From Rhodopirellula bahusiensis (GTDB lineage: Bacteria; Planctomycetota; Planctomycetia; Pirellulales; Pirellulaceae), in NCBI RefSeq assembly GCF_002727185.1, contig NZ_NIZW01000016.1, positions 62,001 through 126,000 on the forward strand: a stretch of 64,000 nt of DNA, read 5' to 3'. Under the pieces are notes generated by a model that did no database searches, was not told where the DNA came from, and saw nothing but the letters and a program-made list of their open reading frames with translations. Positions 14,608 through 28,873 of this stretch are shown here, one piece after another. The position numbers and the translations under genes were made by a program. Numbering within the stretch: position 1 is the stretch's first letter; each line of letters begins with the position of its first letter.

Positions 14608-14793
14608 GGTTGGTTCGTTTGGGCCGGAGTGAATGGGCCAGAAACTTATCACGCTCCCACGATCTTCCCACCCGTCACGATCACCCGACTGCCGGACTTG
14701 CTTGGCGTCTCTCCAGCAACGATGATCAGAGCCCCCTCTCGCGAACTTACGAGCGAGGATCCCTCCCCAATCCATCCCACCCAGCGATTCACC

Positions 14794-17445
14794 ATGCATC
14801 ACTCCACCGGTCCCCAGCCCACCTTTCAATCTGGGAAGCGTTTTGCTTCGTGGATCCGGCCATGCACTTATCTGCTGGTGCTAGCAGTCGCCTGTGTCTC
14901 TTCACTGACATCGCCCGCTCAAGCCGACGACGACACACTCCGAACGGTTCAGGAAGGCGTACCGAAAGGCAAAGTCACCAAGGGCGTGTTCGATGAGAGC
15001 AAAACGTTCCCGGGAACTCGACGCGATTACGCCGTCTATGTTCCATCGCAATACGATCCGAAGACACCAGCGAACTTAATGGTGTTCATGGATGGAATGA
15101 ACTACGCCAAACCAAACGGTTCGTTCCGCGTTCCGATCGTGCTGGACAACTTGATCGCCAACGGATCGTTGCCACCGACGATCGCGGTCTTCGTCAATCC
15201 TGGCACCGTTCCCGCCACCAAACCAGGTGCAAAAAATCGCAGCAACCGTTCGTTCGAGTACGACTCGTTGGGCGATCGCTACGCGGGATTTCTGATCGAT
15301 GAATTCCTTCCGGTTGCATTGAAAGATCGAAACATTTCTTCTGATCCCAAACGACGCGCCGTTGCTGGAATTTCCTCGGGAGGCATCTGTGCCTTCACTG
15401 TGGCTTGGGAACGCCCTGACCAGTTCGGCAAGGTGCTCAGCCACATCGGCAGTTACACCAACATTCGCGGTGGCTGGGCCTATCCCGCTTTGATTCGCAA
15501 AACCAAATCCGATCCCAAACCAATTCAGGTTTACCTGCAAGAAGGCCGCGATGACTTGAGCAACTTGCACGGCAACTGGCCGCTCGCAAACCGTGACATG
15601 GCCGCCGCACTTCAGTTCGCTGGCTACCAGTACAAATTCGTGATGACGGAAGGTGGGCACAGTGGCAAATGGGGCGGGGAAGAATTGCCTAACGCGTTGC
15701 AATGGCTGTGGAACGACGAAGCTGAATCCACGGTCATCCCTCCGGCTTCAACCAAGCCAAAATGGGAACCACATCCGCTCGCGGTCGTGAATGAAGACGT
15801 TCCGCAAGGCAAAGTCGAATCGATGCCACCTTGGAATTCAAAGATCTTCGACAACACGATTCGCGATTGGGCCGTTTATGTTCCAGCTCAATACAACGAG
15901 AACGAACCCGCCGCTCTGATGGTGTTCCAAGATGGCGAGCGGATGCGTGACGTCAAGGGCCGCTGGCGAATCCCGACCGTGTTTGACAACTTGATTGCCA
16001 GTGGCGACATGCCACCAACGATCGCAGTGTTCCTCAATCCGGGTCACGACAAATCGAAACCTCGCAGAGGCCGCAAATCATCCAACCGGGGTTTTGAGTA
16101 CGACAGCCTTGGCGATCGCTACAGCCGATTCCTGTTGGAAGAAATCCTTCCCGAGGTCGAGAAGAAATACAACCTTTCCGACGACCCAAACATGCGTGCG
16201 ATTGGAGGGTCCAGCTCCGGTGCAATCTGTGCTTTCACGGTCGCCTGGGAACGTCCCGATCAATTCCGCAAGGTCTACTCCAACGTCGGCAGCTTCGTGA
16301 ACTTGCGTGGTGGAGACCTTTATTCATCCTTGATCCGCAAGACCGAGCCCAAACCGATTCGCGTTTACATGTCGGACACCAGCGGCGACAACGACAATCC
16401 TTTCGGTCACTGGCCGATCGCCAATCAACGCATGGAATCGTCGCTGAACTACATGGGATACGATGTGCGATTGGATTGGGCCGAAGGCTACGGGCACAAC
16501 GCCGACTTCGGCAGCATGCAATTCCCCGAGGCGATGAAATGGTTGTGGCGGAGCGAATCGCACACGCCTACCGTCGACACCTCCGATGACCTGCGAGGCG
16601 ATTTGACGCTATTGAACCTGCTGGTTCCCGGCAAGTCTTGGGAAGTCGTCGCCGAGGATCTCGGATTCTCGGACGCACCATGCAGCGACGCAGATGGAAA
16701 CTTCTACTACTGCGACATGCGTGCTCCGGCCGTTGTCCGAGTCGATGCGAATGACCAAAGCAAGTCTGTCATTGCAAAAGAATCGGTCAGCGGTTTGATG
16801 TTTGGTCCAAACGATTTGCTCTACGCATGCCAAGGTTCTCAAAAGCGTGTGATCTCGATTGATCCCAAATCCGGCGAAGTGAAAACGATTGCCGAGAACG
16901 TTGCTCCGAATGATCTCGCAGTATCCGATGAAGGTTACTTGTTCATCACTGAGACTCGAACGCATCAAGTCACACGCATCGACATTCAATCCGGCGAAGT
17001 GACGTCCGTGGACGAAGGCATCACCCGCCCGAACGGAATCGCATTGTCCAACGATGGCGGCACGCTGGTTGTTTCGGATCACGGCGGCGAATCAAGCTGG
17101 ACTTTCCGAGTCAACGAAGGCGGAGTGCTCGATGCCAAGATGCCAACCTTGCCAATGCGATTGCCAATCGATCCCAAAGGCGAGTTCAAGTTCAATGAAC
17201 CGCCCCAATACCTGAAGGCATCCAAAGGTGATGGAACGGCCGTCGACAAGCTCGGTCGCTACTACATCACCAGTGACCTGGGCGTGCAAATCTTTGATCC
17301 GACGGGTCGCCCGTGTGGAGTGCTCCCGAAACCCGATGCGACAAAACCACTGACAAGCTGTGTGCTGGCCGGACCGGATCACTCGCACTTGTACGTGACC
17401 AACGGAACGACGATTTATCGACGCGAACTGACCGTCGAGAATTAG
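14794..17445 (+). CDS. secreted tandem esterase fused to SMP-30/gluconolactonase-like beta-propeller
   Basis: 883 aa from ATG 14794 (MHHSTGPQ). Starting at 14629 would add 55 residues ahead of the signal peptide IRPCTYLLVLAVACVSSLTS. Residues of about 45-310 form a first enterochelin-esterase-like alpha/beta hydrolase with YVPSQYD, VFMDGMNY, FEYDSLGDRY and nucleophile GISSGGICAFTVAWERPDQF. Residues of about 330-590 repeat the domain with YVPAQYN, VFQDGERM, FEYDSLGDRY and GGSSSGAICAFTVAWERP. The two copies are clearly homologous, so an internal duplication occurred. The C-terminal 290 residues are an SMP-30/gluconolactonase-like propeller (FSDAPCSDADGNFYYCDM, VAPNDLAVSDEG, RPNGIALSNDG). An exported sugar-ester or lactone-processing enzyme is inferred. 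Confidence 0.87.
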   Translation: MHHSTGPQPTFQSGKRFASWIRPCTYLLVLAVACVSSLTSPAQADDDTLRTVQEGVPKGKVTKGVFDESKTFPGTRRDYAVYVPSQYDPKTPANLMVFMDGMNYAKPNGSFRVPIVLDNLIANGSLPPTIAVFVNPGTVPATKPGAKNRSNRSFEYDSLGDRYAGFLIDEFLPVALKDRNISSDPKRRAVAGISSGGICAFTVAWERPDQFGKVLSHIGSYTNIRGGWAYPALIRKTKSDPKPIQVYLQEGRDDLSNLHGNWPLANRDMAAALQFAGYQYKFVMTEGGHSGKWGGEELPNALQWLWNDEAESTVIPPASTKPKWEPHPLAVVNEDVPQGKVESMPPWNSKIFDNTIRDWAVYVPAQYNENEPAALMVFQDGERMRDVKGRWRIPTVFDNLIASGDMPPTIAVFLNPGHDKSKPRRGRKSSNRGFEYDSLGDRYSRFLLEEILPEVEKKYNLSDDPNMRAIGGSSSGAICAFTVAWERPDQFRKVYSNVGSFVNLRGGDLYSSLIRKTEPKPIRVYMSDTSGDNDNPFGHWPIANQRMESSLNYMGYDVRLDWAEGYGHNADFGSMQFPEAMKWLWRSESHTPTVDTSDDLRGDLTLLNLLVPGKSWEVVAEDLGFSDAPCSDADGNFYYCDMRAPAVVRVDANDQSKSVIAKESVSGLMFGPNDLLYACQGSQKRVISIDPKSGEVKTIAENVAPNDLAVSDEGYLFITETRTHQVTRIDIQSGEVTSVDEGITRPNGIALSNDGGTLVVSDHGGESSWTFRVNEGGVLDAKMPTLPMRLPIDPKGEFKFNEPPQYLKASKGDGTAVDKLGRYYITSDLGVQIFDPTGRPCGVLPKPDATKPLTSCVLAGPDHSHLYVTNGTTIYRRELTVEN

Positions 17446-17906: not shown

Positions 17907-18105
17907 TTTTCTCTCCCGTTGGTGAACCCTGTGAGTCTCCGCTCACGGCAATGCTTCAATGCCGATACCGGTGCAAGGTTCCGCCAAACCAATCGAAAAT
18001 TGGTACGACATCGGTTTCTCCGATGAGCTCCTATTGTGCCGAAACCTTTTGGCAGGACTGGGGTTCCAATCGCTGAACGTTCATGCCCGAGAAGGAAAAG
18101 ATGCA

Positions 18106-18786
18106 ATGCAAGATCGACTGCTATTGGTCGAAGATGACACCCATTTGGCAGCGATGGTCAGTGACTTCCTCCAAGAAAACGGTTTCTCGGTGGAGATCGA
18201 AAACGATGGCGAACTCGCCGCCAAACGAATTGTCCACAGTCGATTTGACGCGATTGTGTTGGACATCGGTTTACCTAGCATGAACGGGATCGATGTCTGC
18301 CGGGCCGTCCGAAATCACTTCTCTGGACCGATCATCGTTCTGACCGCTCGCGGGGAAGAAATTGACGAAGTCGTCGCGTTGGAAGTCGGCGCGGATGATT
18401 TCATGAGCAAACCGGTCCGCCCGCGTGCGCTGCTCGCTCGGTTGAAAAATCATTTGAGAAAGTCGGACTCACAGCTCACCGAAGAAGACCGAATCGTCGT
18501 TGGCGATATGATCGTCACACCCGCGAAACGTCAGGTAACGATCGCGGGCGACCAGGTCGATATGACCACTGCCGAATTCGACTTGATCGAATACCTTGCA
18601 TCGCGTGCTGGTTCGGTTGTCGCTCGCAAAGACATCTATGTCGATCTGCTGGGCCTGCCCTACGATGGCCTTGACCGTTCAATCGACTTGAGAGTCTCAC
18701 GGGTCCGACGCAAACTCGGCGACGACCCAAACCACCCCACGCGAATCAAATCGGTTCGCGGGGTTGGATACCTGATGGCAAAGTGA
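18106..18786 (+). CDS. orphan OmpR/RstA-type response regulator
   Basis: 226 aa. ATG 18106 is chosen because GAAGGA at 18091-18096 lies 9 bp upstream and the receiver begins at once (LLLVEDDTHLAAMV); the open frame upstream to 17959 has no receiver homology. Receiver: acidic pair ED, phosphorylation Asp in IVLDIGLPSMNG, Thr in VLTARG, Lys in DFMSKPVRP. The C-terminal winged helix has TTAEFDLIEYLA, YDGLDRSIDLRVSRVRRKLG and IKSVRGVGYL, closest in style to RstA. No histidine kinase is adjacent. It is convergent with the polyketide synthase gene, 30 bp between stops. Confidence 0.92.
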   Translation: MQDRLLLVEDDTHLAAMVSDFLQENGFSVEIENDGELAAKRIVHSRFDAIVLDIGLPSMNGIDVCRAVRNHFSGPIIVLTARGEEIDEVVALEVGADDFMSKPVRPRALLARLKNHLRKSDSQLTEEDRIVVGDMIVTPAKRQVTIAGDQVDMTTAEFDLIEYLASRAGSVVARKDIYVDLLGLPYDGLDRSIDLRVSRVRRKLGDDPNHPTRIKSVRGVGYLMAK

Positions 18787-18816: not shown

Positions 18817-21800
18817 TCACTTCGCCGTGGCGTGCTGTTCCATTCGCTTTGATAATTCGCGAGCTTGCTCGCCCATCAGCATCGTGAAGTGATCGCCATC
18901 GGCCTGTTCCACGATGACTTCTTTATCGAGCTGAGACGCCCAATCCAAGTGATCGGTCCAGCGTTCTCCCGACGAACCCTCCAACGCCGTCGTCTTCACC
19001 GGCAGGATCAATTGCACACTCGGGCCGGACGGGTCAATCTCATACGACTTGATGAACTGGACGTGTTGCCGACTGGTGTCAATCAACTTGCGAACCATCT
19101 CGGGTGACGCCGATTGACTGAGCACGCCCGCACGTTGAGCCTCTTCCAACACACGCTGCCAAATTCGGTCGGTACCACGGGCTTCTTCCAATTCTTCCGC
19201 AGGCAGATGCATGTCAGTCCCCGAGAACGCGTTGGAGAACTGAATCAGATCGGCGACGAACTGGACATCATCGTTTGGATCAACATTGCGATAAATCGAT
19301 GGAAGTGGTGTGTCCAACAAGGTCACCGACACGTCTTCGCGACCTTCCTTCTCCAAGCGATGGGCAAGCTCCAATGCAAAGATTCCGCCGGCAGACCATC
19401 CAATCAATCGAAGTTCGTCATCCGCGAATCGTTCTTGCACGAGAGCAACATACTCTTCCATCATGGCGTCCATCGACGCCGGTGGCTCGCTGACTCCGTC
19501 CGATCCACCGCCGACCAGAGCATGCACCGGTTGGTCTTCGTCCACTTGCTTCGAAAACTCCGTGTAGCATGCTGTTGATCCGCCAAGTGGGTGTATGCAT
19601 AGCCACGGCGATCGACTGCCCTCGGCTTTCAGCGGCACGATCAACGCGGTCTTGTCGCTTCCGGATTGCGCCGACTTCTCCGGTGCCTTTTTCATCTCGC
19701 CGTCTTCGTCGGCAAACTGCGACACGACATGTCCAACCAAGCTGTTGATGGATGGCGACTCGACGAGTGCTGACATCGGAATCGTGATCGCCAAGCGTTG
19801 CTCGAGATTGTTCTTCAATTCCATAGCGATCAAGGAATCCATGCCCAATTCGCTGAGTTTCTGCTTGACGTCAATTTGCTCCGCCTCCCACCCCATCAAT
19901 CGGGCGAGCTCGGAAGCGAAGTACTGACGCAACCGTTCCGTTCGTTCGGCTTCAGGAATCCCCGACAATTGCGATCGGAACTCGTGGTCAACCTGATCCG
20001 CCTTCGTTTTGGAATCACCTTGCGAGTGATCCGCAAACTCGGCGAAGAAAGGTCGGCTGCGACGCATACTTTTTGTCATCGCCGGCCAATCCACATCCAT
20101 CACGGCAACGTATCGATCCCCAGCTTCAATGAGTTGCTGCATGGTTTGCAGACACGCATCGGCGGGAAGCAGTCTCATTCCGCGAGATTCCAACTGCGAC
20201 GATCGGTCTTCCGTGGCGGCCATACCAGACTCGGCCCACGGGCCCCAGGCGATGCTGGTCGCTGGCAAACCTTGACCACGACGGTACTCGGCCAAAGAAT
20301 CCAAAAAGCTATTGGCCGCGGCATAGTTGGCTTGGCCAGGCGACCCCAGGCAAGCGGCGATGGACGAGAACAACACGAACGATTCGATCGGCAAGTCTTT
20401 CGTTGCGACGTGCAAGTTCCAGCCGCCTCGGACCTTGGGACTCATCGGAACGAGCAACTGATCCGATGTCATGTCCATCAACAACCCATCCTGCAAAACA
20501 CCGGCGGCGTGATAAACGTGACCAATCGGAGGCAGACCTCTGGGCAATTGCTCAAGCGCCGATCGCAGCGAGTCGAGGTCACCCACGTCACCTTGCAGCA
20601 CGGTCACTTTCGCGGAATCAGAATCCTTTGTCAGAGCTTCGATCTTTGCGGCGATTTCTCCGACCGGCTGACGACGAGAAAGCAATGCGATGCTGGTCGC
20701 GCCGTCGTCGATCAATTGTTTGGCTAGCTTCAACCCAATCGCACCGGTACCGCCAGTGATCAAGACAGTCGAATCAACCGGTTCTTCTTTCGCCCCGTCC
20801 GCATCAGCAGAATCAAGATCCACCTGCGTCGACATTCGCGTGATGACTTTGCCGATGTTCTTTCGCTGTGCCATGTAGCGGAACGTCTCGACCATTTCGG
20901 TTTGATCAAACTCGGTGCAAGCGATCGGTTGCAGGTCGCCCGCTTCGAATCGTTCAGCTAACTCGGCCCACAATTTTTCGATCTTCGCGGGACGTTGTCT
21001 CAACACGCGATCCAAATCGATCGCGTGGTAGGACAGATTGTCCTGGAACGGCAACAACCCCACTTTGCGATCTTGGTAAATGTCGGTCTTGCCGATCTCC
21101 AGGAAGCGACCGTAGGCATTGAGCACACTCAGGCTTTTCGGTATCGCTTCGCCCGGCAAGGAATTCAACACCACGTCCACTCCGTCGCCAGCAAAAACGC
21201 GTCGGATATCGTCCGCGAATTCGGTGGTCCGAGAGTTGAAGACATGCTTCACGCCACTGTTGCGCAGAAATTCGCGTTTCTCGTCGCTGCCCGCCGTCGC
21301 GATGATTTCGGCACCCAAATACTTCGCGATCTGCGTGGCGGCCAAACCAACTCCACCGGCCCCGGCGTGAATCAACACGCGTTCGCCGGGTTGAACATCG
21401 GCCAAATGCACAAGCCCATACCACGCGGTTAGAAACGCGATCGGGATTGTTGCGGCCTCAACGTCGTCAATATTGGCCGGGCGTTTGATCAGCGTGTACT
21501 CCGGCGTTTTGGCATGTGATCCAAAGCTGAACGGAGCGACTCCCATCACGTGGTCGCCAACTTGGAAGTGCTTTGCGTCCTTGCCGATCGCGGTGACGAC
21601 GCCCGAGCACTCGATGCCCAATGGCACGACCTTGTCGGTGATCCCGGGGTACAACCCCATCACTTTCAGCACATCGCTGAAGTTCAAACCCGCCGCATTC
21701 ACCCGCAGTTGAACTTCGCTTCCTTGAGGAGCATCAAGTTCCATTGGCTCGAAGTACAACGAATCGAAACTACCGGTTTGGCGGAATCGCAAACGGTGAG

Positions 21801-24800
21801 GCTGCGATGGAATCGCAACCGACGTCTCGCCGTCCGAATTCGCGGGAGCGTTTCGCTTCACCAATCGTCCCACGTGACGCGTGTCGTTCCGGTAGGCGAT
21901 GTGATCTTCTTCATCGGCCGCGACAATTTCAGCGATGGTCGCCGACGCATTGCCCTCTTCCGAAGCGGACGGATCCAAATCCAACAACGATGGTTTCAGA
22001 TCCGCGAGCTCCATCATCGCGACACGAATCATTCCCCACAATGGAGCATGAGCCAAATCGATCTTCGTCTCCGATTCGGAAACCGTTTGGGCTGCCTTCG
22101 TGCAATGCCACCAACCGCGAAAATGCTTCCCGACCGTGACGTGCTGAATGGCGGATCGAATTTGCTTCAGCGCCGACTGGCAAGCGACTTCCGCGTCGCC
22201 CGCCGGGTCACTTGGATCGCCGATGGAATCCCAGAGTGTGATGATCGCGGCGAGTGCGGACGTCGATTCCGATCGTTCGGCGAGCGACTTGAAGTCTCCC
22301 GTCAGATCGCCGGTGACAACCTCGGCCCCGAGACCAGCCAACTGCTTGGAAAGGGACTCTTGCAGCGACCCACCTTCGCCCAACAACCAAACTTGCTGCC
22401 CGCTCAAGTCACCTTCACCGTCGAGCGATTCAGTGGCCTGCCATTCAATCTGGTAGAGCGAATCATCCAGCGACTCCGCTGCACCACCGACGCGTCCGAC
22501 ACGAGTCACGCGAACGCCAGTCCACTCGGCGACGACCTCGTTCTGTTCATTGACCAGCCAAACGTCGCCTTCAACAAACTCGGGGTCGAGGACATCTCCC
22601 GGAGAAGTTCTTTTGCCGTAGGTGCGAAGTGTTCCGCTGGGTTGTTGATGCACCACTGCTCGCGAAACTTTCGTGGGCATGTAGGTTGCTTCGCTGAACG
22701 TGTCGTGATCAGGTCGCGGAACCAAAGCCGAGAATGTTTGCATCAGCGCATCGCCAAGAACGGGATGCAAAATGTAATCACCAAACTCAGCTCGCGTGGC
22801 TTCGTCACATTGGACTTGCCCCAACGCCTCGTCAATCGAGTAGTCGACGCGGTGCAACATTCGGAATCGCGGTCCGTACTCCAGTCGCCGATGCGACATC
22901 AAGTCATAGAACTCATCGTGATCCTTGCCACCAACAAATCGGTCAGCAACCGTTGCCATGCTTGTTGGTGAACCGACAGCATCCACCTTCGATGTTTCAT
23001 CAGCTTGTTCCGCGGGCACCAGCGATGCGGACATGTGCCGCTGCCATGGTTCCGTTGTATCGGAACGATCACGCGAGAACACTTCGAGAGACAAGCTCTC
23101 ATCAACGATGGTCTGGAAAGTTTTCCAACGGTCTTCGCTGACAAACATAGCCTGTTCGATATTCGCATCCGTGACCGCATGCGAGCCAGCACCGAAGCGA
23201 TCTCGGGCAGCGGCAAAAGCGACCTCCATGAACGCAGCACCGGGCAAGTTGACCGATCCTTGCACCGCGTGATCGGCCAAGAACTCTGGCGAACGGGCCG
23301 ACAACGCGTTTTCATACAAACGGCTCTGCAGTGCCGAGGGCAGCAACCTCCCCAGCATTGGATGCAACAATTCGCCGGATCCGGAACGACGCCGAGATGG
23401 ATCCTCGACGATTTCATCCGTTGGATCCAACCAGTAACGTTGGCGATCAAATGGGTAGGTCGGCAAAACCAATCGCTGTCGTTTCCAAGGTCGATCAAAC
23501 GCCCTCCAATCAATCTTGCCGCCGCGAGCGTGAACGTCGCCCACCGCTTCGTACAAAATTGATTCGTCATCCTTGCCCGACCGTAGCGACGTCGTCCAGG
23601 TTGCAGAAGAATCCGGCAAACAACGCTTCCCCATGCCAGTCAAAATGGGCGACGGCCCAACTTCCAACATGACATCGATGTCCATCTCCGCCAGCGTTCG
23701 CATGCTGGGTTCAAAACGGACCGCGTTGCGAATGTGATCGCACAAATAATTCGCGTCCCACGCCTTGTTCCACTGCTCACCAGTCAAATTGCTGATCAAT
23801 GGAATGCGAGGTGATTTGAATTCGCATTGCTCTGCAAGCTCACGGAATTCATCCAGCATCGGCTCCATCAATTGCGAATGAAACGCGTGCGATACTTGCA
23901 ACGCTTTCGAAGCGACACCGGCTTCCTCGCAGTGCTTTGCGAAAGCATCGAGTTCCGATTGCGGGCCGGAAACGACGGTGTTCTGCGGCCCATTCTCCGC
24001 GGCGATCGAAAGCGACCCACCACCTGATGTTTCAAATTCTCGAAGATGCTTCGCGATGACATCCGTCGATTCAAACATGGCTGTCATGCCACCGCCGGCG
24101 GGCAACTCGCCCATCAAACGACCGCGATGAGCGATCAAGTTCAACGCATCTTCCAACGAAACGACCCCGGCAATGCAAGCCGCGGCAAATTCTCCGACGC
24201 TGTGTCCCAAAACAACGTTTGGTTTCAAGCCCCACGACAACCAAAGCTGAGCAAGTGAATACTCAATCGCGAACAGTGCGGGTTGGGTGTATCGGGTTTG
24301 ATGGACCAGTTCCGAATCGGGTCCGTCACCGTACAGCACATCTAGCAAGCGTTTGGGCAGGACCTTCGAAAGGAGTTCGTCGCACCGCGTCATCGCCTCG
24401 CGAAAAACGGGCTGAGTTTCGAACAAACCTTTTCCCATGCCCGGCGATTGCGCACCTTGGCCGGTGAACAAAAACGCGGTGCGAGTCGCTCGGCTCGTCA
24501 CGGTTTGCCCGTTGCGGATGCCGGGACCTTTCTTGCCTTTGCTCAACTGAGTCAACTGCTCACCGAGTTGAGCCGCGTCCTCGAATACAACGGCAGTTCG
24601 ATGGGTGTGATGAACACGTCCGACGTTCATCGTGTGGGCGACATCCACGACGTTGTCATCCGTGCGGTCGAGATGCTGTTTCAAACGCGATGCAACGTCG
24701 GCGATGGCGGCTTCGCTTTTGCCACTCAGGTTCAACACATGCCGGGTGCGATCCTTTAATTTTGAATCAGCTGAACCGGCGGGCTCAACCGTATCCGTCG

Positions 24801-26241
24801 CCACATACTGCTGCATCACCAAGTGCGTGTTCGCACCACCGAACCCGAACGAACTGACTCCGGCAACAAGCGGTTCATCATCGACCGGCCAAGGTGGTGA
24901 CTGAGCAGGGATCACGATGCGCGAACGCTTCAACGACATTCGCGGGTTGAGCTTTTTCAAATGAAGCTGGCCGGGAATGGTTTGGTGACGCATCATCAGC
25001 AACAGTTTGATGATGCCAGCCACGCCCGAGACCGTTTCCATGTGGCCCACGTTGGCTTTGACACTGGTCACATAGCACGGCGGGTCGACGCCAGGTTTTC
25101 CGGAGAAGACTTGCGTCAGTGCGTCGACTTCGATCGGGTCGCCCAACGGCGTTCCGGTTCCATGCGCTTCGATGTAGTTGACTCGAGACGCAGGCAAGCC
25201 CGCTTCGCGAAGGGCGGTGCGAATGACGGCTTGTTGCGACACACCATTGGGAGCGGTGATGCCGCTTGTTCGACCGTCTTGGTTGGTCGCGCTAGCCAGG
25301 ATGGTTCCCCAAATGTGATCGCCATCGCGTTCCGCATCACTCAATCGCTTCAACAACAGCATGCCGCAGCCTTCGCCGCGAACGTAGCCGTTGGCATCAG
25401 CATCGAAAGGACGGCATTGACCATCCGGTGACAACATTCGTGCTTTGGAAAACGCGATCGTTGTTTCAGGGGTCAAGATCGCGTTCACGCCACCGGCGAG
25501 CGCCGCATCGCACTCACCCGCACGCAAACTTTGCACGGCCAGATGAATGGCCATCGTCGATGATGAACACGCAGTGTCGATTGCCATGCTGGGACCGCGA
25601 AGGTCCATGATGTAGGACAGCCGATTGGCCGCGATCGACAGCGCGTTGCCTGTCCCGACGTGCGCATCGATGTACTGGTAGTAGCCGTCGTAGGTCGACG
25701 GGACTTTGGAATAGTCGGTGCCACCAATTCCGACATAAGCACCAACGGGAGTGCCCGCCAAACTGGACACCGGGATGCCGGCGACCTCAAACGCTTCCCA
25801 GCTGACTTCCAACAGCAATCGTTGCTGGGGATCCATCCGCGCCGCTTCGCGAGGCGAGATCCCAAAGAACTTGGGGTCGAACTGATCGATGTTGTCGACC
25901 ATCCCCGCTCGACGGACCGACATGCGTCCGGCTTTTTGACCGGTTGGATCGTAGAGTTCATCCACGTCCCAGCGTTCTGGCGGGATCTCGGCGGTTGCAT
26001 CGATCCCTTCCGAAATCACCTTCCAATACGCATCCAAATCCGGCGCCCCCGGAAACCGACACGACACTCCCACGATCGCAATCGCCTCGGCGGACGATTT
26101 CAATTGGCCGGAAACAGCGGGTTTGACGGCGGGAGAGGGCGTCGACGACGACGAACGGGCCAAGCGTTTTCGCAGTGCTGCTCTCTGGTCTGGAGAGAGC
26201 TTCGCGAGACGTTCGGAAAGGTCACGTTCGGGTGAATTCAC
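18817..26241 (-). CDS. single-module highly reducing type I polyketide synthase with thioesterase
   Basis: 2474 aa in one chain. KS: Cys225 (DTACSSS), His360 (EAHGTGT), His400 (NVGHME). AT: Ser681 in GHSVGE, with HAFH at 785-788, which predicts malonyl-CoA. DH: His991 in HAVQGSVNLPG and Asp1164 in HPVLGDALMQ. A non-catalytic stretch of about 230 residues (1250-1480) follows. ER near 1480-1800: NADPH loop HAGAGGVGLAATQ. KR near 1825-2020: TGGTGAIG, Ser1960, Tyr1973, Asn1977. ACP: Ser2136 in LGMDSL. TE: Ser2283 in GWSAGG with a late His in DHFTM. No methyltransferase motif is seen. All domains look active, so iterative synthesis of a saturated or partly reduced polyketide or fatty acid released by the TE is predicted. 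No phosphopantetheinyl transferase or tailoring gene is adjacent. Confidence 0.95.
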   Translation of the reverse strand: MNSPERDLSERLAKLSPDQRAALRKRLARSSSSTPSPAVKPAVSGQLKSSAEAIAIVGVSCRFPGAPDLDAYWKVISEGIDATAEIPPERWDVDELYDPTGQKAGRMSVRRAGMVDNIDQFDPKFFGISPREAARMDPQQRLLLEVSWEAFEVAGIPVSSLAGTPVGAYVGIGGTDYSKVPSTYDGYYQYIDAHVGTGNALSIAANRLSYIMDLRGPSMAIDTACSSSTMAIHLAVQSLRAGECDAALAGGVNAILTPETTIAFSKARMLSPDGQCRPFDADANGYVRGEGCGMLLLKRLSDAERDGDHIWGTILASATNQDGRTSGITAPNGVSQQAVIRTALREAGLPASRVNYIEAHGTGTPLGDPIEVDALTQVFSGKPGVDPPCYVTSVKANVGHMETVSGVAGIIKLLLMMRHQTIPGQLHLKKLNPRMSLKRSRIVIPAQSPPWPVDDEPLVAGVSSFGFGGANTHLVMQQYVATDTVEPAGSADSKLKDRTRHVLNLSGKSEAAIADVASRLKQHLDRTDDNVVDVAHTMNVGRVHHTHRTAVVFEDAAQLGEQLTQLSKGKKGPGIRNGQTVTSRATRTAFLFTGQGAQSPGMGKGLFETQPVFREAMTRCDELLSKVLPKRLLDVLYGDGPDSELVHQTRYTQPALFAIEYSLAQLWLSWGLKPNVVLGHSVGEFAAACIAGVVSLEDALNLIAHRGRLMGELPAGGGMTAMFESTDVIAKHLREFETSGGGSLSIAAENGPQNTVVSGPQSELDAFAKHCEEAGVASKALQVSHAFHSQLMEPMLDEFRELAEQCEFKSPRIPLISNLTGEQWNKAWDANYLCDHIRNAVRFEPSMRTLAEMDIDVMLEVGPSPILTGMGKRCLPDSSATWTTSLRSGKDDESILYEAVGDVHARGGKIDWRAFDRPWKRQRLVLPTYPFDRQRYWLDPTDEIVEDPSRRRSGSGELLHPMLGRLLPSALQSRLYENALSARSPEFLADHAVQGSVNLPGAAFMEVAFAAARDRFGAGSHAVTDANIEQAMFVSEDRWKTFQTIVDESLSLEVFSRDRSDTTEPWQRHMSASLVPAEQADETSKVDAVGSPTSMATVADRFVGGKDHDEFYDLMSHRRLEYGPRFRMLHRVDYSIDEALGQVQCDEATRAEFGDYILHPVLGDALMQTFSALVPRPDHDTFSEATYMPTKVSRAVVHQQPSGTLRTYGKRTSPGDVLDPEFVEGDVWLVNEQNEVVAEWTGVRVTRVGRVGGAAESLDDSLYQIEWQATESLDGEGDLSGQQVWLLGEGGSLQESLSKQLAGLGAEVVTGDLTGDFKSLAERSESTSALAAIITLWDSIGDPSDPAGDAEVACQSALKQIRSAIQHVTVGKHFRGWWHCTKAAQTVSESETKIDLAHAPLWGMIRVAMMELADLKPSLLDLDPSASEEGNASATIAEIVAADEEDHIAYRNDTRHVGRLVKRNAPANSDGETSVAIPSQPHRLRFRQTGSFDSLYFEPMELDAPQGSEVQLRVNAAGLNFSDVLKVMGLYPGITDKVVPLGIECSGVVTAIGKDAKHFQVGDHVMGVAPFSFGSHAKTPEYTLIKRPANIDDVEAATIPIAFLTAWYGLVHLADVQPGERVLIHAGAGGVGLAATQIAKYLGAEIIATAGSDEKREFLRNSGVKHVFNSRTTEFADDIRRVFAGDGVDVVLNSLPGEAIPKSLSVLNAYGRFLEIGKTDIYQDRKVGLLPFQDNLSYHAIDLDRVLRQRPAKIEKLWAELAERFEAGDLQPIACTEFDQTEMVETFRYMAQRKNIGKVITRMSTQVDLDSADADGAKEEPVDSTVLITGGTGAIGLKLAKQLIDDGATSIALLSRRQPVGEIAAKIEALTKDSDSAKVTVLQGDVGDLDSLRSALEQLPRGLPPIGHVYHAAGVLQDGLLMDMTSDQLLVPMSPKVRGGWNLHVATKDLPIESFVLFSSIAACLGSPGQANYAAANSFLDSLAEYRRGQGLPATSIAWGPWAESGMAATEDRSSQLESRGMRLLPADACLQTMQQLIEAGDRYVAVMDVDWPAMTKSMRRSRPFFAEFADHSQGDSKTKADQVDHEFRSQLSGIPEAERTERLRQYFASELARLMGWEAEQIDVKQKLSELGMDSLIAMELKNNLEQRLAITIPMSALVESPSINSLVGHVVSQFADEDGEMKKAPEKSAQSGSDKTALIVPLKAEGSRSPWLCIHPLGGSTACYTEFSKQVDEDQPVHALVGGGSDGVSEPPASMDAMMEEYVALVQERFADDELRLIGWSAGGIFALELAHRLEKEGREDVSVTLLDTPLPSIYRNVDPNDDVQFVADLIQFSNAFSGTDMHLPAEELEEARGTDRIWQRVLEEAQRAGVLSQSASPEMVRKLIDTSRQHVQFIKSYEIDPSGPSVQLILPVKTTALEGSSGERWTDHLDWASQLDKEVIVEQADGDHFTMLMGEQARELSKRMEQHATAK

Positions 26242-26498: not shown

Positions 26499-27320
26499 AT
26501 GCCGATTCGCTTGCAATGCTCCTGTGGCAAACAACTCAGCGTCCGCGACGAATTTGCCGGAAAAGCGGTGAAATGCCCCAGCTGCAGCAAGGCAATTCGC
26601 GTGCCGGCAGCAGGAGGGGGGGGTAAGCCGGCTGCGGCACGAGCCGCCAAGCCAAAAGCAGCAGCCGCTCGTCCGGCCGCAGCTCGCCCCGCACCCGCGG
26701 CGTCTCAATCGGACTCTCTGGACGATTTATTCGCGGAAGAAGGCTTCGATCGCCAGGTTTTCGCGGTCTGCCCGGCCTGCAAATCCGAGATGGCAGCCGG
26801 CGCGGTGCTTTGCACCAAATGCGGCTACAACAAAGAGACCGGCACCAGCGTCGAAAGCCACAAAGTTGCCGGCGTCGACATCGACATGGGCACACTGGCC
26901 CTGATGAAGGCCGAACAAGACATGGTTCGCGATGTGGCGTTGCAAGAAAAAATGCAAAAAGGCGCCGGCATGCCGCCGTGGATGCTGGCGTTGATCCTCT
27001 TCATCCTCGGCAGCGCCGTCACGATCGCGGTTTTGGCAGTGAACGCTTCCCGCCGAGTCGAACAATTGCAGTTCAAACCGCTGCAAATGTTCTGCAACCT
27101 CGGTGGCGCCGCGTTTGCGATGGTCGCCATCGGATCGGTGCTGACCCTGATCGCTCGTGCTTTCAAAGTCAGCCGCAACGAAGGGTTGCTGTCGCTGACA
27201 ATTCTGTACGTTCCGATCTTTGTCATCCGACACTTCCGAGACAACTGGAAAGCGGCGATGACCGCCATCATCTGCGGCGGTTGCGCCGGCGGTTTCTTTG
27301 CCGCCGCCTCTCGCATGTGA
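26499..27320 (+). CDS. zinc-ribbon membrane protein
   Basis: 273 aa from ATG 26499 (MPIRLQCSCGKQL); the frame is open further upstream but that part overlaps the PKS start. Residues 1-35 form a ribbon with CSCG and CPSCSKAIRVP, as commonly seen at the front of planctomycete proteins. An Ala/Lys/Pro-rich linker follows, then a second ribbon (CPACKSE, CTKCGYNKETG). The C-terminal half has about three TM segments (MLALILFILGSAVTIAVLAV, FAMVAIGSVLTLIARAF, MTAIICGGCAGGFFAA). Function unknown. The stop lies 4 bp from the stop of the convergent ATP-grasp gene. Confidence 0.8.
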   Translation: MPIRLQCSCGKQLSVRDEFAGKAVKCPSCSKAIRVPAAGGGGKPAAARAAKPKAAAARPAAARPAPAASQSDSLDDLFAEEGFDRQVFAVCPACKSEMAAGAVLCTKCGYNKETGTSVESHKVAGVDIDMGTLALMKAEQDMVRDVALQEKMQKGAGMPPWMLALILFILGSAVTIAVLAVNASRRVEQLQFKPLQMFCNLGGAAFAMVAIGSVLTLIARAFKVSRNEGLLSLTILYVPIFVIRHFRDNWKAAMTAIICGGCAGGFFAAASRM

Positions 27321-27324
27321 TCCA

Positions 27325-28467
27325 TCAGCAATCGCTGCTTGACTTCCGGTCCGTTTGGACTTCCCCACTCGTGGCCCAGCGAACTTGATTCGAACCAGTT
27401 CGAAACGAAAAGCTGGCTTCCGGCTGTTCGGTGATCAGCGACGGGTTCCAGATGGAGGTCAGGTTCTGATCTGTCAGATGTCGAACACCGATGTACGACG
27501 TGGTCAGCCGCGGATTGATCTCGATCACGCAGTCATCCTCCGGACGATCACCTAAGACGAAGTCGATCCCCAAGAACCCACGTGGTGACGCGGGCAAAGC
27601 TTGCAAGACTTGCTTGGCGAGCTTGAATCCTCGCGATTGCAATTCGATATCGATCGGTCCGCTACCGCCAGTGTAGTGAGTCGACCGACCAGCGGATTGA
27701 TTATCAGCCGCCGTGTCGTCGTTGCGCCGCTGACAATGCTGCCACACCGCCGGACAGATGACTGGTTCCGCGATCGCGTTCTTCGCTTCGCCGACAACCA
27801 AGATTGATGCGGGCCGGCCTTCGATCCATGCTTGCGCAACTTCGTTGTCTTGGAGTGCGGAACATGCAAGCTCCCAATCATCAAAAACACGAATGGCTTC
27901 GGAACCACATCCGTCTCTCGGCTTTCGAACCCAACGATTCGCCGTCAATCCAACGGAACCGAGCCTGCTCGACTGACGCTTGAGCTCGTCCGTGCTTGAA
28001 TCCTTGTTTGACCAAGTCAGCGGTGTGGGGATGGCGTGTTCCGTCAACCATTTCGCAGTCAACCATTTGTCGCTGGCCATCTGCATCGTCGGCTCATCAA
28101 CCGCCAACACATCGATATCTGCGTCGCGGAAGGCGGCAACGAGTCTCGCAAGTTCACCATCCGTTTCGGGTGCAACCAGAATTGCGACGTCGCATTTTTT
28201 TGCGAGCCTCAACCATTGTTCACAAACGGTTTCCGCTAGTTCGAGAGCGACGCATCGAACGGCATCCGGCACGTCGGCCACCAAATCGATGCCTGGCAAA
28301 CCGAACCGAGGATCGATCGGCGTGACCACCTCCGCCCAGTCCGCGAAATCGGTGACCAAGGCTTGCCACATCGCTCGGCCTTCACTCAAAAGCGAAGACG
28401 GGATCTGGTTTTGGGGTGTGGACAGCATGCCGCCGCCACACAGAAATTCGCCAACAAAGACTCGCAT
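27325..28467 (-). CDS. ATP-grasp ligase, MfnD-like (possible tyramine-glutamate ligase)
   Basis: 380 aa from ATG 28467 (MRVFVGEFLCGGGM). It has ATP-grasp architecture: N-terminal strand and Gly-rich FLCGGGM, SLLSEGRAMWQALVTDF, a SDKWLTAKWL segment, lysine in VRKPRDGCGSEAI, and the metal-binding C-terminal VIEINPRLTTSYIG. The opening motif resembles the MfnD/COG1821 group, which joins tyramine to glutamate in methanofuran synthesis. Planctomycetes are known to carry H4MPT/methanofuran C1 enzymes, so this role is plausible but rests on recall of family style. The start is 13 bp downstream of the thioesterase stop, suggesting one transcript with the next two genes. Confidence 0.78.
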   Translation of the reverse strand: MRVFVGEFLCGGGMLSTPQNQIPSSLLSEGRAMWQALVTDFADWAEVVTPIDPRFGLPGIDLVADVPDAVRCVALELAETVCEQWLRLAKKCDVAILVAPETDGELARLVAAFRDADIDVLAVDEPTMQMASDKWLTAKWLTEHAIPTPLTWSNKDSSTDELKRQSSRLGSVGLTANRWVRKPRDGCGSEAIRVFDDWELACSALQDNEVAQAWIEGRPASILVVGEAKNAIAEPVICPAVWQHCQRRNDDTAADNQSAGRSTHYTGGSGPIDIELQSRGFKLAKQVLQALPASPRGFLGIDFVLGDRPEDDCVIEINPRLTTSYIGVRHLTDQNLTSIWNPSLITEQPEASFSFRTGSNQVRWATSGEVQTDRKSSSDC

Positions 28468-28480
28468 ACGGAAACCTCCG

Positions 28481-28873
28481 TCAGCGAGCTTCCAGGTTTG
28501 GCAACCGAGCCAATTTGCCAGTTCGATCGACACAGGCGATCACCGAGTCCGCTTCGACGATCAATTGATCGTCGCGGTGAATTTGATAGAGGTGTCGCAT
28601 TCGAACCTTGCGTATTTCCACGACCGTGGTCGTCAGCTCCAGCCAGTCATCGAATTCGGCAGGAGCGAAATACTTCACGTTCATCTCGGCGACGACCAGC
28701 ATCCGCCCTTCGTCTTCGATTGTTTTGTAGTTGAAACCGAGATCGCGCAGCATCTCGACCCGACCACGCTCGAAGTAGTTCAGGTAGTTGGCATGATGGA
28801 CTCGACGCTGGCCGTCAGTTTCCTGGTAGGCCACGCGGAATCCATACTTATGCGATGTCTTCGAATCCGTCAC
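28481..28873 (-). CDS. hot-dog acyl-CoA thioesterase (YbgC/FadM-like)
   Basis: 130 aa from GTG 28873 (MTDSKTSHKYG), 5 bp after the stop of the upstream SufT-like gene; the longer open frame overlaps that gene. The 4HBT signature is clear: FRVAYQETDGQRRVHHANYLNYFERGR, with the catalytic-type Asp in ETD, then VAEMNVKYFAPAEFDDWLEL. It probably hydrolyses an acyl-CoA thioester; substrate unknown. It is in the same tight run as the ATP-grasp and SufT-like genes. Confidence 0.88.
   Translation of the reverse strand: MTDSKTSHKYGFRVAYQETDGQRRVHHANYLNYFERGRVEMLRDLGFNYKTIEDEGRMLVVAEMNVKYFAPAEFDDWLELTTTVVEIRKVRMRHLYQIHRDDQLIVEADSVIACVDRTGKLARLPNLEAR

Follow-up and report, generated by a model that had tools for sequence, protein, structure and literature searches.

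Planctomycetes carry many orphan PKS genes without an assigned product. A gene of this kind, encoding a fully reducing PKS module with its own TE, is located in the window studied here, i.e. the whole 64,000-nucleotide stretch of DNA that was analysed from Rhodopirellula bahusiensis (contig NZ_NIZW01000016.1, positions 62,001 to 126,000). It raises the question of whether such an enzyme works on its own, as had been assumed in a preliminary description of the DNA, or as one component of a pathway whose other genes lie elsewhere. The features relevant to this question are compiled in Table 1.

Table 1. Coordinates of the PKS, its domains, the adjacent genes, and the partner loci (window positions unless a contig is given).
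Feature	Position	Strand	Basis or remark
Single-module highly reducing type I PKS, 2474 aa, GTG start	18817..26241	-	ORF, Pfam, motifs
N-terminal segment with family-conserved helix LSERLAKLSPDQRAALRKRLA	26089..26241	-	consensus of A1
KS domain, aa 52-478	24808..26088	-	Pfam, motifs, tree
AT domain, aa 587-877	23611..24483	-	Pfam, motifs
DH domain, aa 960-1255	22477..23364	-	Pfam, motifs
Structural (pseudo) KR region (psiKR), aa 1262-1480	21802..22458	-	placed between DH and ER
ER domain, aa 1487-1800	20842..21783	-	Pfam, motifs
KR domain, aa 1824-2010	20212..20772	-	Pfam, motifs
ACP domain, aa 2103-2174	19720..19935	-	Pfam, motifs
Type I thioesterase (TE) domain, aa 2212-2466	18844..19608	-	Pfam, motifs
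OmpR/PhoB-type response regulator, convergent with PKS	17959..18786	+	syntenic in five close relatives
Zinc-ribbon protein, divergent from PKS	26499..27320	+	synteny
ATP-grasp_3 protein, ATP-grasp family differing from that of the pathway	27325..28533	-	46-59% identical in close relatives
GH3-PanE-ATP-grasp locus of the window's genome	contig C17, L151:10682-14884		
SDR-MR/MLE-hydrolase locus of the window's genome	contig C38, L213:8418-11552		

The gene encodes a single intact chain with the domain order KS-AT-DH-psiKR-ER-KR-ACP-TE, and the plus-strand frame across the same interval was riddled with stops. Pfam analysis gave very strong scores, in this order, to the N- and C-terminal ketoacyl-synt domains, Acyl_transf_1, PKS_DH_N and PS-DH, ADH_N/ADH_zinc_N, KR, PP-binding, and Thioesterase; CurL-like_PKS_C was also matched. 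The KS active site comprised C225 (TACSS), H360 (HGTGT), and H400 (KANVGH), and the DH contained H991 (HAVQGSVNLP) and D1164. The motif HAGAGGVG was read in the ER, the KR exhibited GGTGAIG, FSS, and YAAAN with the catalytic S/Y/N residues present, and the ACP carried S2136 in GMDSL. The TE triad of S2283 (GWSAG), D2310, and H2451 was conserved across the family. In the AT, S681 was found in GHSVG together with an HAFH motif, a combination that is a sign of malonyl-CoA use. With KS, AT, DH, ER, KR, and ACP united in one chain with intact residues, the protein is a single-module highly reducing type I PKS. Pfam and motif analyses thus bore out the preliminary description insofar as it had read all catalytic residues, including those of the TE, in one 2474-residue chain, and had derived from them one complete fully reducing module of malonyl type plus a TE.

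The catalytic residues were kept in the orthologues and even in homologues that were merely 40-48% identical. In a 44% identity subfamily, the AT, DH, and TE motifs seemed to be lost only because the search patterns were overly stringent; the actual forms were HAMH, HxxxQxxxxP, and GWSTG. Comparison with the orthologue of G004, a congener, gave a dN/dS of 0.061 for the whole chain (2470 codons), with 0.012 for the KS, 0.005 for the ACP, 0.027 for the ER, and 0.028 for the TE; the psiKR region was the least conserved part (0.134). The low values in the domains indicate that every PKS domain is maintained under strong purifying selection. Two phosphopantetheinyl transferases encoded in the genome could activate the ACP.

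The PKS gene lies between a convergent response regulator gene and a divergent zinc-ribbon gene and is thus presumably transcribed alone. Its contig contained no other KS, the remaining KS matches of the genome being located on other contigs. Five congeners (G002, G004, G006, G009, and G011) had a PKS orthologue (78-89% identity) in a syntenic neighbourhood, and the PKS-TE type was found in 11 of the 13 genomes of the genus, the window's genome counted. The ATP-grasp_3, response regulator, and zinc-ribbon genes did not accompany distant PKS homologues. In seven congeners without the PKS orthologue, the zinc-ribbon gene had neither of the other two genes in its vicinity. The ATP-grasp_3 gene had diverged among the close relatives (Table 1), and its neighbours were mostly 80-98% identical. 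A 938-aa fusion of an enterochelin-esterase-like domain with an SMP-30/gluconolactonase-like propeller is encoded at window positions 14629-17445.

In a subfamily of 42-44% identity to the window PKS (L051-L054), a GH3-family gene adjoined the PKS gene, and the same arrangement was found in further genera (L049, L059, L084, L176, and L178-L184). In these GH3-linked clusters a FAAL-ACP was usually encoded immediately upstream of the PKS, and varying subsets of PanE/ApbA, SDR, MR/MLE, alpha/beta-hydrolase, ATP-grasp, and MMPL exporter genes were also present. The conserved helix in the N-terminal segment of the PKS appears docking-like and might perhaps serve the receipt of the chain from the FAAL-ACP. 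Four loci of the 44% subfamily (L158-L160 and L166) contained a second GH3 gene beside an ATP-grasp and a VTT-domain gene, in three of the four together with a class-III aminotransferase gene. In the FAAL-PKS cluster L059:7583-22841, an HMGL-like gene (homocitrate/isopropylmalate synthase type) and an asparagine-synthase gene preceded the GH3 gene.

The window's genome encodes, in addition to the PKS-TE of the planctomycete clade, six of these cluster families (GH3, PanE-like, ATP-grasp, SDR, MR/MLE, and hydrolase) at two loci away from the PKS (Table 1). The claim of the preliminary description that the PKS stands alone without partner genes consequently held within the window, but neither for the clusters of the relatives nor for the organism's own genome. 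In G004, the PKS is located at 6.45 Mb, the GH3 locus at 6.81 Mb, and the SDR-MR/MLE-hydrolase locus at 5.90 Mb, leaving a gap of approximately 0.36 Mb between PKS and GH3. Because the PKS and GH3 genes of the window's genome are on different contigs, the link between them rests on the relatives and on co-occurrence. GH3 was present in exactly those 13 of 27 genomes that encode a PKS-TE (Fisher 5e-8, ancestry ignored). Among 296 genomes of the order, a strong GH3 match was found in 13 of the 21 with PKS-TE versus 2 of the 275 without (p 1e-15, ancestry ignored); PKS-TE were called manually by a TE match of E <= 1e-27 plus either a long frame or the edge of a contig, and some of the genomes with one of the two genes but not the other were incomplete. 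The pathway ATP-grasp gene occurred only in GH3 genomes of this sample (13/15 versus 0/281). Its substrate could not be assigned from the fold, to which purine-biosynthesis, biotin-carboxylase, and amino-acid-ligase enzymes fitted alike, rendering the fold uninformative. Within the genus (g1), G005 and G007, which are devoid of a PKS-TE, were also devoid of GH3, the cluster-type MR/MLE, and the cluster-type SDR. Such absences within the genus and the repeated physical linkage across genera carry more weight than the p-values.

The pathway GH3 kept the nucleotide-binding motifs SGTT...K, SASEG, and YRYD and matched plant acyl-acid amido synthetases. GH3 enzymes activate carboxylic acids by adenylation and then hand the acyl group to an amine. 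With 94.5 bits, the pathway GH3 scored far below the curated cut-off of 620 bits for OlsH (NF052613). OlsH, a planctomycete GH3 from Singulisphaera, forms N-acyl ornithine from a free fatty acid independently of ACP and CoA (PMC12493201), in keeping with hydrolytic release of the chain by the TE of the PKS. The likeness to the OlsH/OlsI system is at the family level and comprises a GH3 amidating a free fatty acid and an alpha/beta-hydrolase partner; no PKS or FAAL is described for that system in PMC12493201, and PanE, ATP-grasp, MR/MLE, and SDR are additional here.

According to the sequence data, the window PKS probably does not act in isolation but belongs to an amino-lipid pathway encoded at at least three genomic sites, in which the predicted product most likely arises by coupling of the completed chain to an amino acid. 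With moderate confidence, we consider that the PKS lengthens a chain with malonyl units, probably iteratively, and that the resulting saturated acid is freed by the TE, coupled to an amino acid by GH3, and tailored further. A putative starter would be activated and loaded by the FAAL-ACP that adjoins the PKS in most relatives, and in the window's organism by a FAAL or another loader. The PKS would extend this acyl starter by malonyl-derived C2 units with full reduction, most likely in several rounds, and the TE would hydrolyse the chain to a free saturated long-chain acid. The GH3 encoded elsewhere in the genome would then activate the free acid with ATP and couple it to an amino acid, presumably as an amide. 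The PanE-like reductase and the ATP-grasp ligase of the GH3 operon, together with the SDR, MR/MLE, and alpha/beta-hydrolase enzymes of the third locus, would complete an amino-lipid or lipo-dipeptide. The order of these steps and the identity of the amino acid are presumptive. The chances appear even for the fuller version, according to which a FAAL-primed iterative PKS, a TE, a plant-hormone-type GH3, and an ATP-grasp enzyme, encoded by genes scattered over three sites in the R. baltica lineage, produce a lipo-amino acid or lipo-dipeptide with no NRPS involved.

An IQ-TREE analysis of 84 KS sequences from the contig scan and relatives, covering many phyla but not LovB and mammalian FAS, placed the window KS in a clade of 21 planctomycete-only single-module fully reducing synthases (UFBoot/SH-aLRT 94/90), or of 23 members with two larger FAAL-fused sisters added (99/95). 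MAS and CurL fell outside this clade. Versus PDB chains, the KS scored highest with CurL (474 bits), then with PksJ, PikA, DEBS, Pks13, MAS (383), LovB (347), and mammalian FAS (286); the nominal top match was a chain with two KS domains that scored 335 and 364 bits singly. The exclusion of REF_MAS from the clade and the lower MAS score argue against membership in the MAS family, and the LovB and FAS scores below those of CurL and DEBS against the fungal HR-PKS and animal FAS families. By its sequence, the KS represents a separate lineage of modular-PKS type, distinct from the MAS, fungal, and animal lineages. The preliminary description had regarded a position within the assembly-line PKSs as speaking against its reading; the KS was not located inside such a clade. 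Its inference of iteration from the layout is plausible and compatible with the data, but the layout is not diagnostic, and the KS phylogeny would likewise accommodate iteration while proving neither iteration nor its absence. Bacterial single FAAL-fed modules of both the iterative (MAS) and the single-use kind exist. CurL, a cyanobacterial modular cis-AT PKS and the closest characterised relative in KS and KS-AT architecture, is an assembly-line module, whereas the window PKS is a single module with its own TE outside the CurL lineage.

The foremost alternative, which we regard as unlikely, is that the PKS performs a single C2 extension of a special loaded starter, with TE release to GH3. The proximity of the KS to modular CurL rather than to MAS, LovB, or mammalian FAS and the precedent of FAAL-fed modules acting once would suit it, as would the assembly-line-like build of an approximately 5000-aa sister synthase (L056:2-14911), which unites FAAL, a CMAS-type methyltransferase, ACP, the PKS module, C-A-PCP, and a terminal thioester reductase in one chain. 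This sister also speaks for the proposed amino-lipid pathway, as it follows the same logic of FAAL priming, elongation, and amide formation with an amino acid, using another amide-forming machinery. Against single use, no multi-module member was present in the sampled KS clade, and a single reducing round adds just two carbons to a normal fatty acid, which requires no dedicated synthase; iteration is favoured by this argument of economy. In a further sister synthase of approximately 5000 aa (L097:6776-22318), this PKS module was accompanied by flanking domains.

FAAL homologues of the window's genome were located on contigs C1 and C2, and no cluster-type FAAL-ACP loader was found among these matches. 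A role of the FAAL on C2 as the loader of the cluster was not supported; the tree assigned it to another FAAL clade, common to genomes without PKS-TE. A self-contained iterative synthase, comparable to MAS or a type I FAS of microbes, self-primed with acetyl- or malonyl-CoA and forming a saturated fatty acid separately from the GH3 set, would be in line with the missing cluster-type FAAL, the presumably solitary transcription of the PKS, the eight PKS-TE genomes without strong GH3, and MAS as the top PDB match for the full-length chain (947 bits, aa 49-2184). We nevertheless consider it rather improbable, given that PKS genes of several genera repeatedly cluster with those for FAAL-ACP and GH3 and that PKS-TE and GH3 are jointly present or absent. 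The mycobacterial MAS, an iterative FAAL-fed HR-PKS, has no TE and uses methylmalonyl-CoA. It shares with the window PKS the single KS-AT-DH-psiKR-ER-KR-ACP chain, and with the relatives of the latter the pairing with FAAL; the window PKS differs by its TE, its malonyl-type AT, and a KS outside the MAS lineage.

The window's genome (G000) contains a second multi-domain type I PKS, a 3666-aa PKS-NRPS-TE hybrid on contig C10 (L040:7953-18953; KS-AT-DH-ER-KR-ACP-C-A-PCP-TE), and, on contig C12 (L041:2571-11378), a PfaA-like protein of 2935 aa that combines tandem KS-type domains with an AT and a KR and is probably a secondary-lipid (PUFA-like) synthase. Although both type I systems are present, an assembly line composed of them and the window PKS is highly improbable, since the latter has its own terminal TE, the loci differ, and its orthologues cluster with FAAL and GH3 and not with those synthases. 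In agreement with the preliminary description, which had named feeding by other PKS genes as contrary to its reading, there was no sign of either feeding the window PKS.

Two monomodular PKSs were noted earlier in R. baltica (Donadio 2007, as quoted in PMC4982196), and a KS amplicon from R. baltica was assigned to genome segment 22/24 by Graca 2016 (PMC4982196), so that the existence of the PKS gene was already on record. The R. baltica monomodular PKS is very probably the orthologue of the window PKS, as the segment fits the G004 position of 6.45 out of 7.15 Mb. The available portions of PMC4982196 treat the gene or amplicon only, with neither product nor partners. A chlorinated fatty acid was reported from R. 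baltica, as cited in PMC12078418; we claim no tie to the window PKS. In the literature searched, no description linking GH3 with FAAL/PKS in planctomycetes was found. The domains are ordinary; what is new is that the PKS has a conserved set of partners and that their genes are dispersed.

Since the pathway genes are dispersed in R. baltica, genome mining based on single loci would miss the pathway. With its partner genes named, the product of the window PKS can now be sought directly. If true, the proposed pathway would provide an example of a bacterial PKS that is partnered by a GH3 amide synthetase instead of an NRPS.
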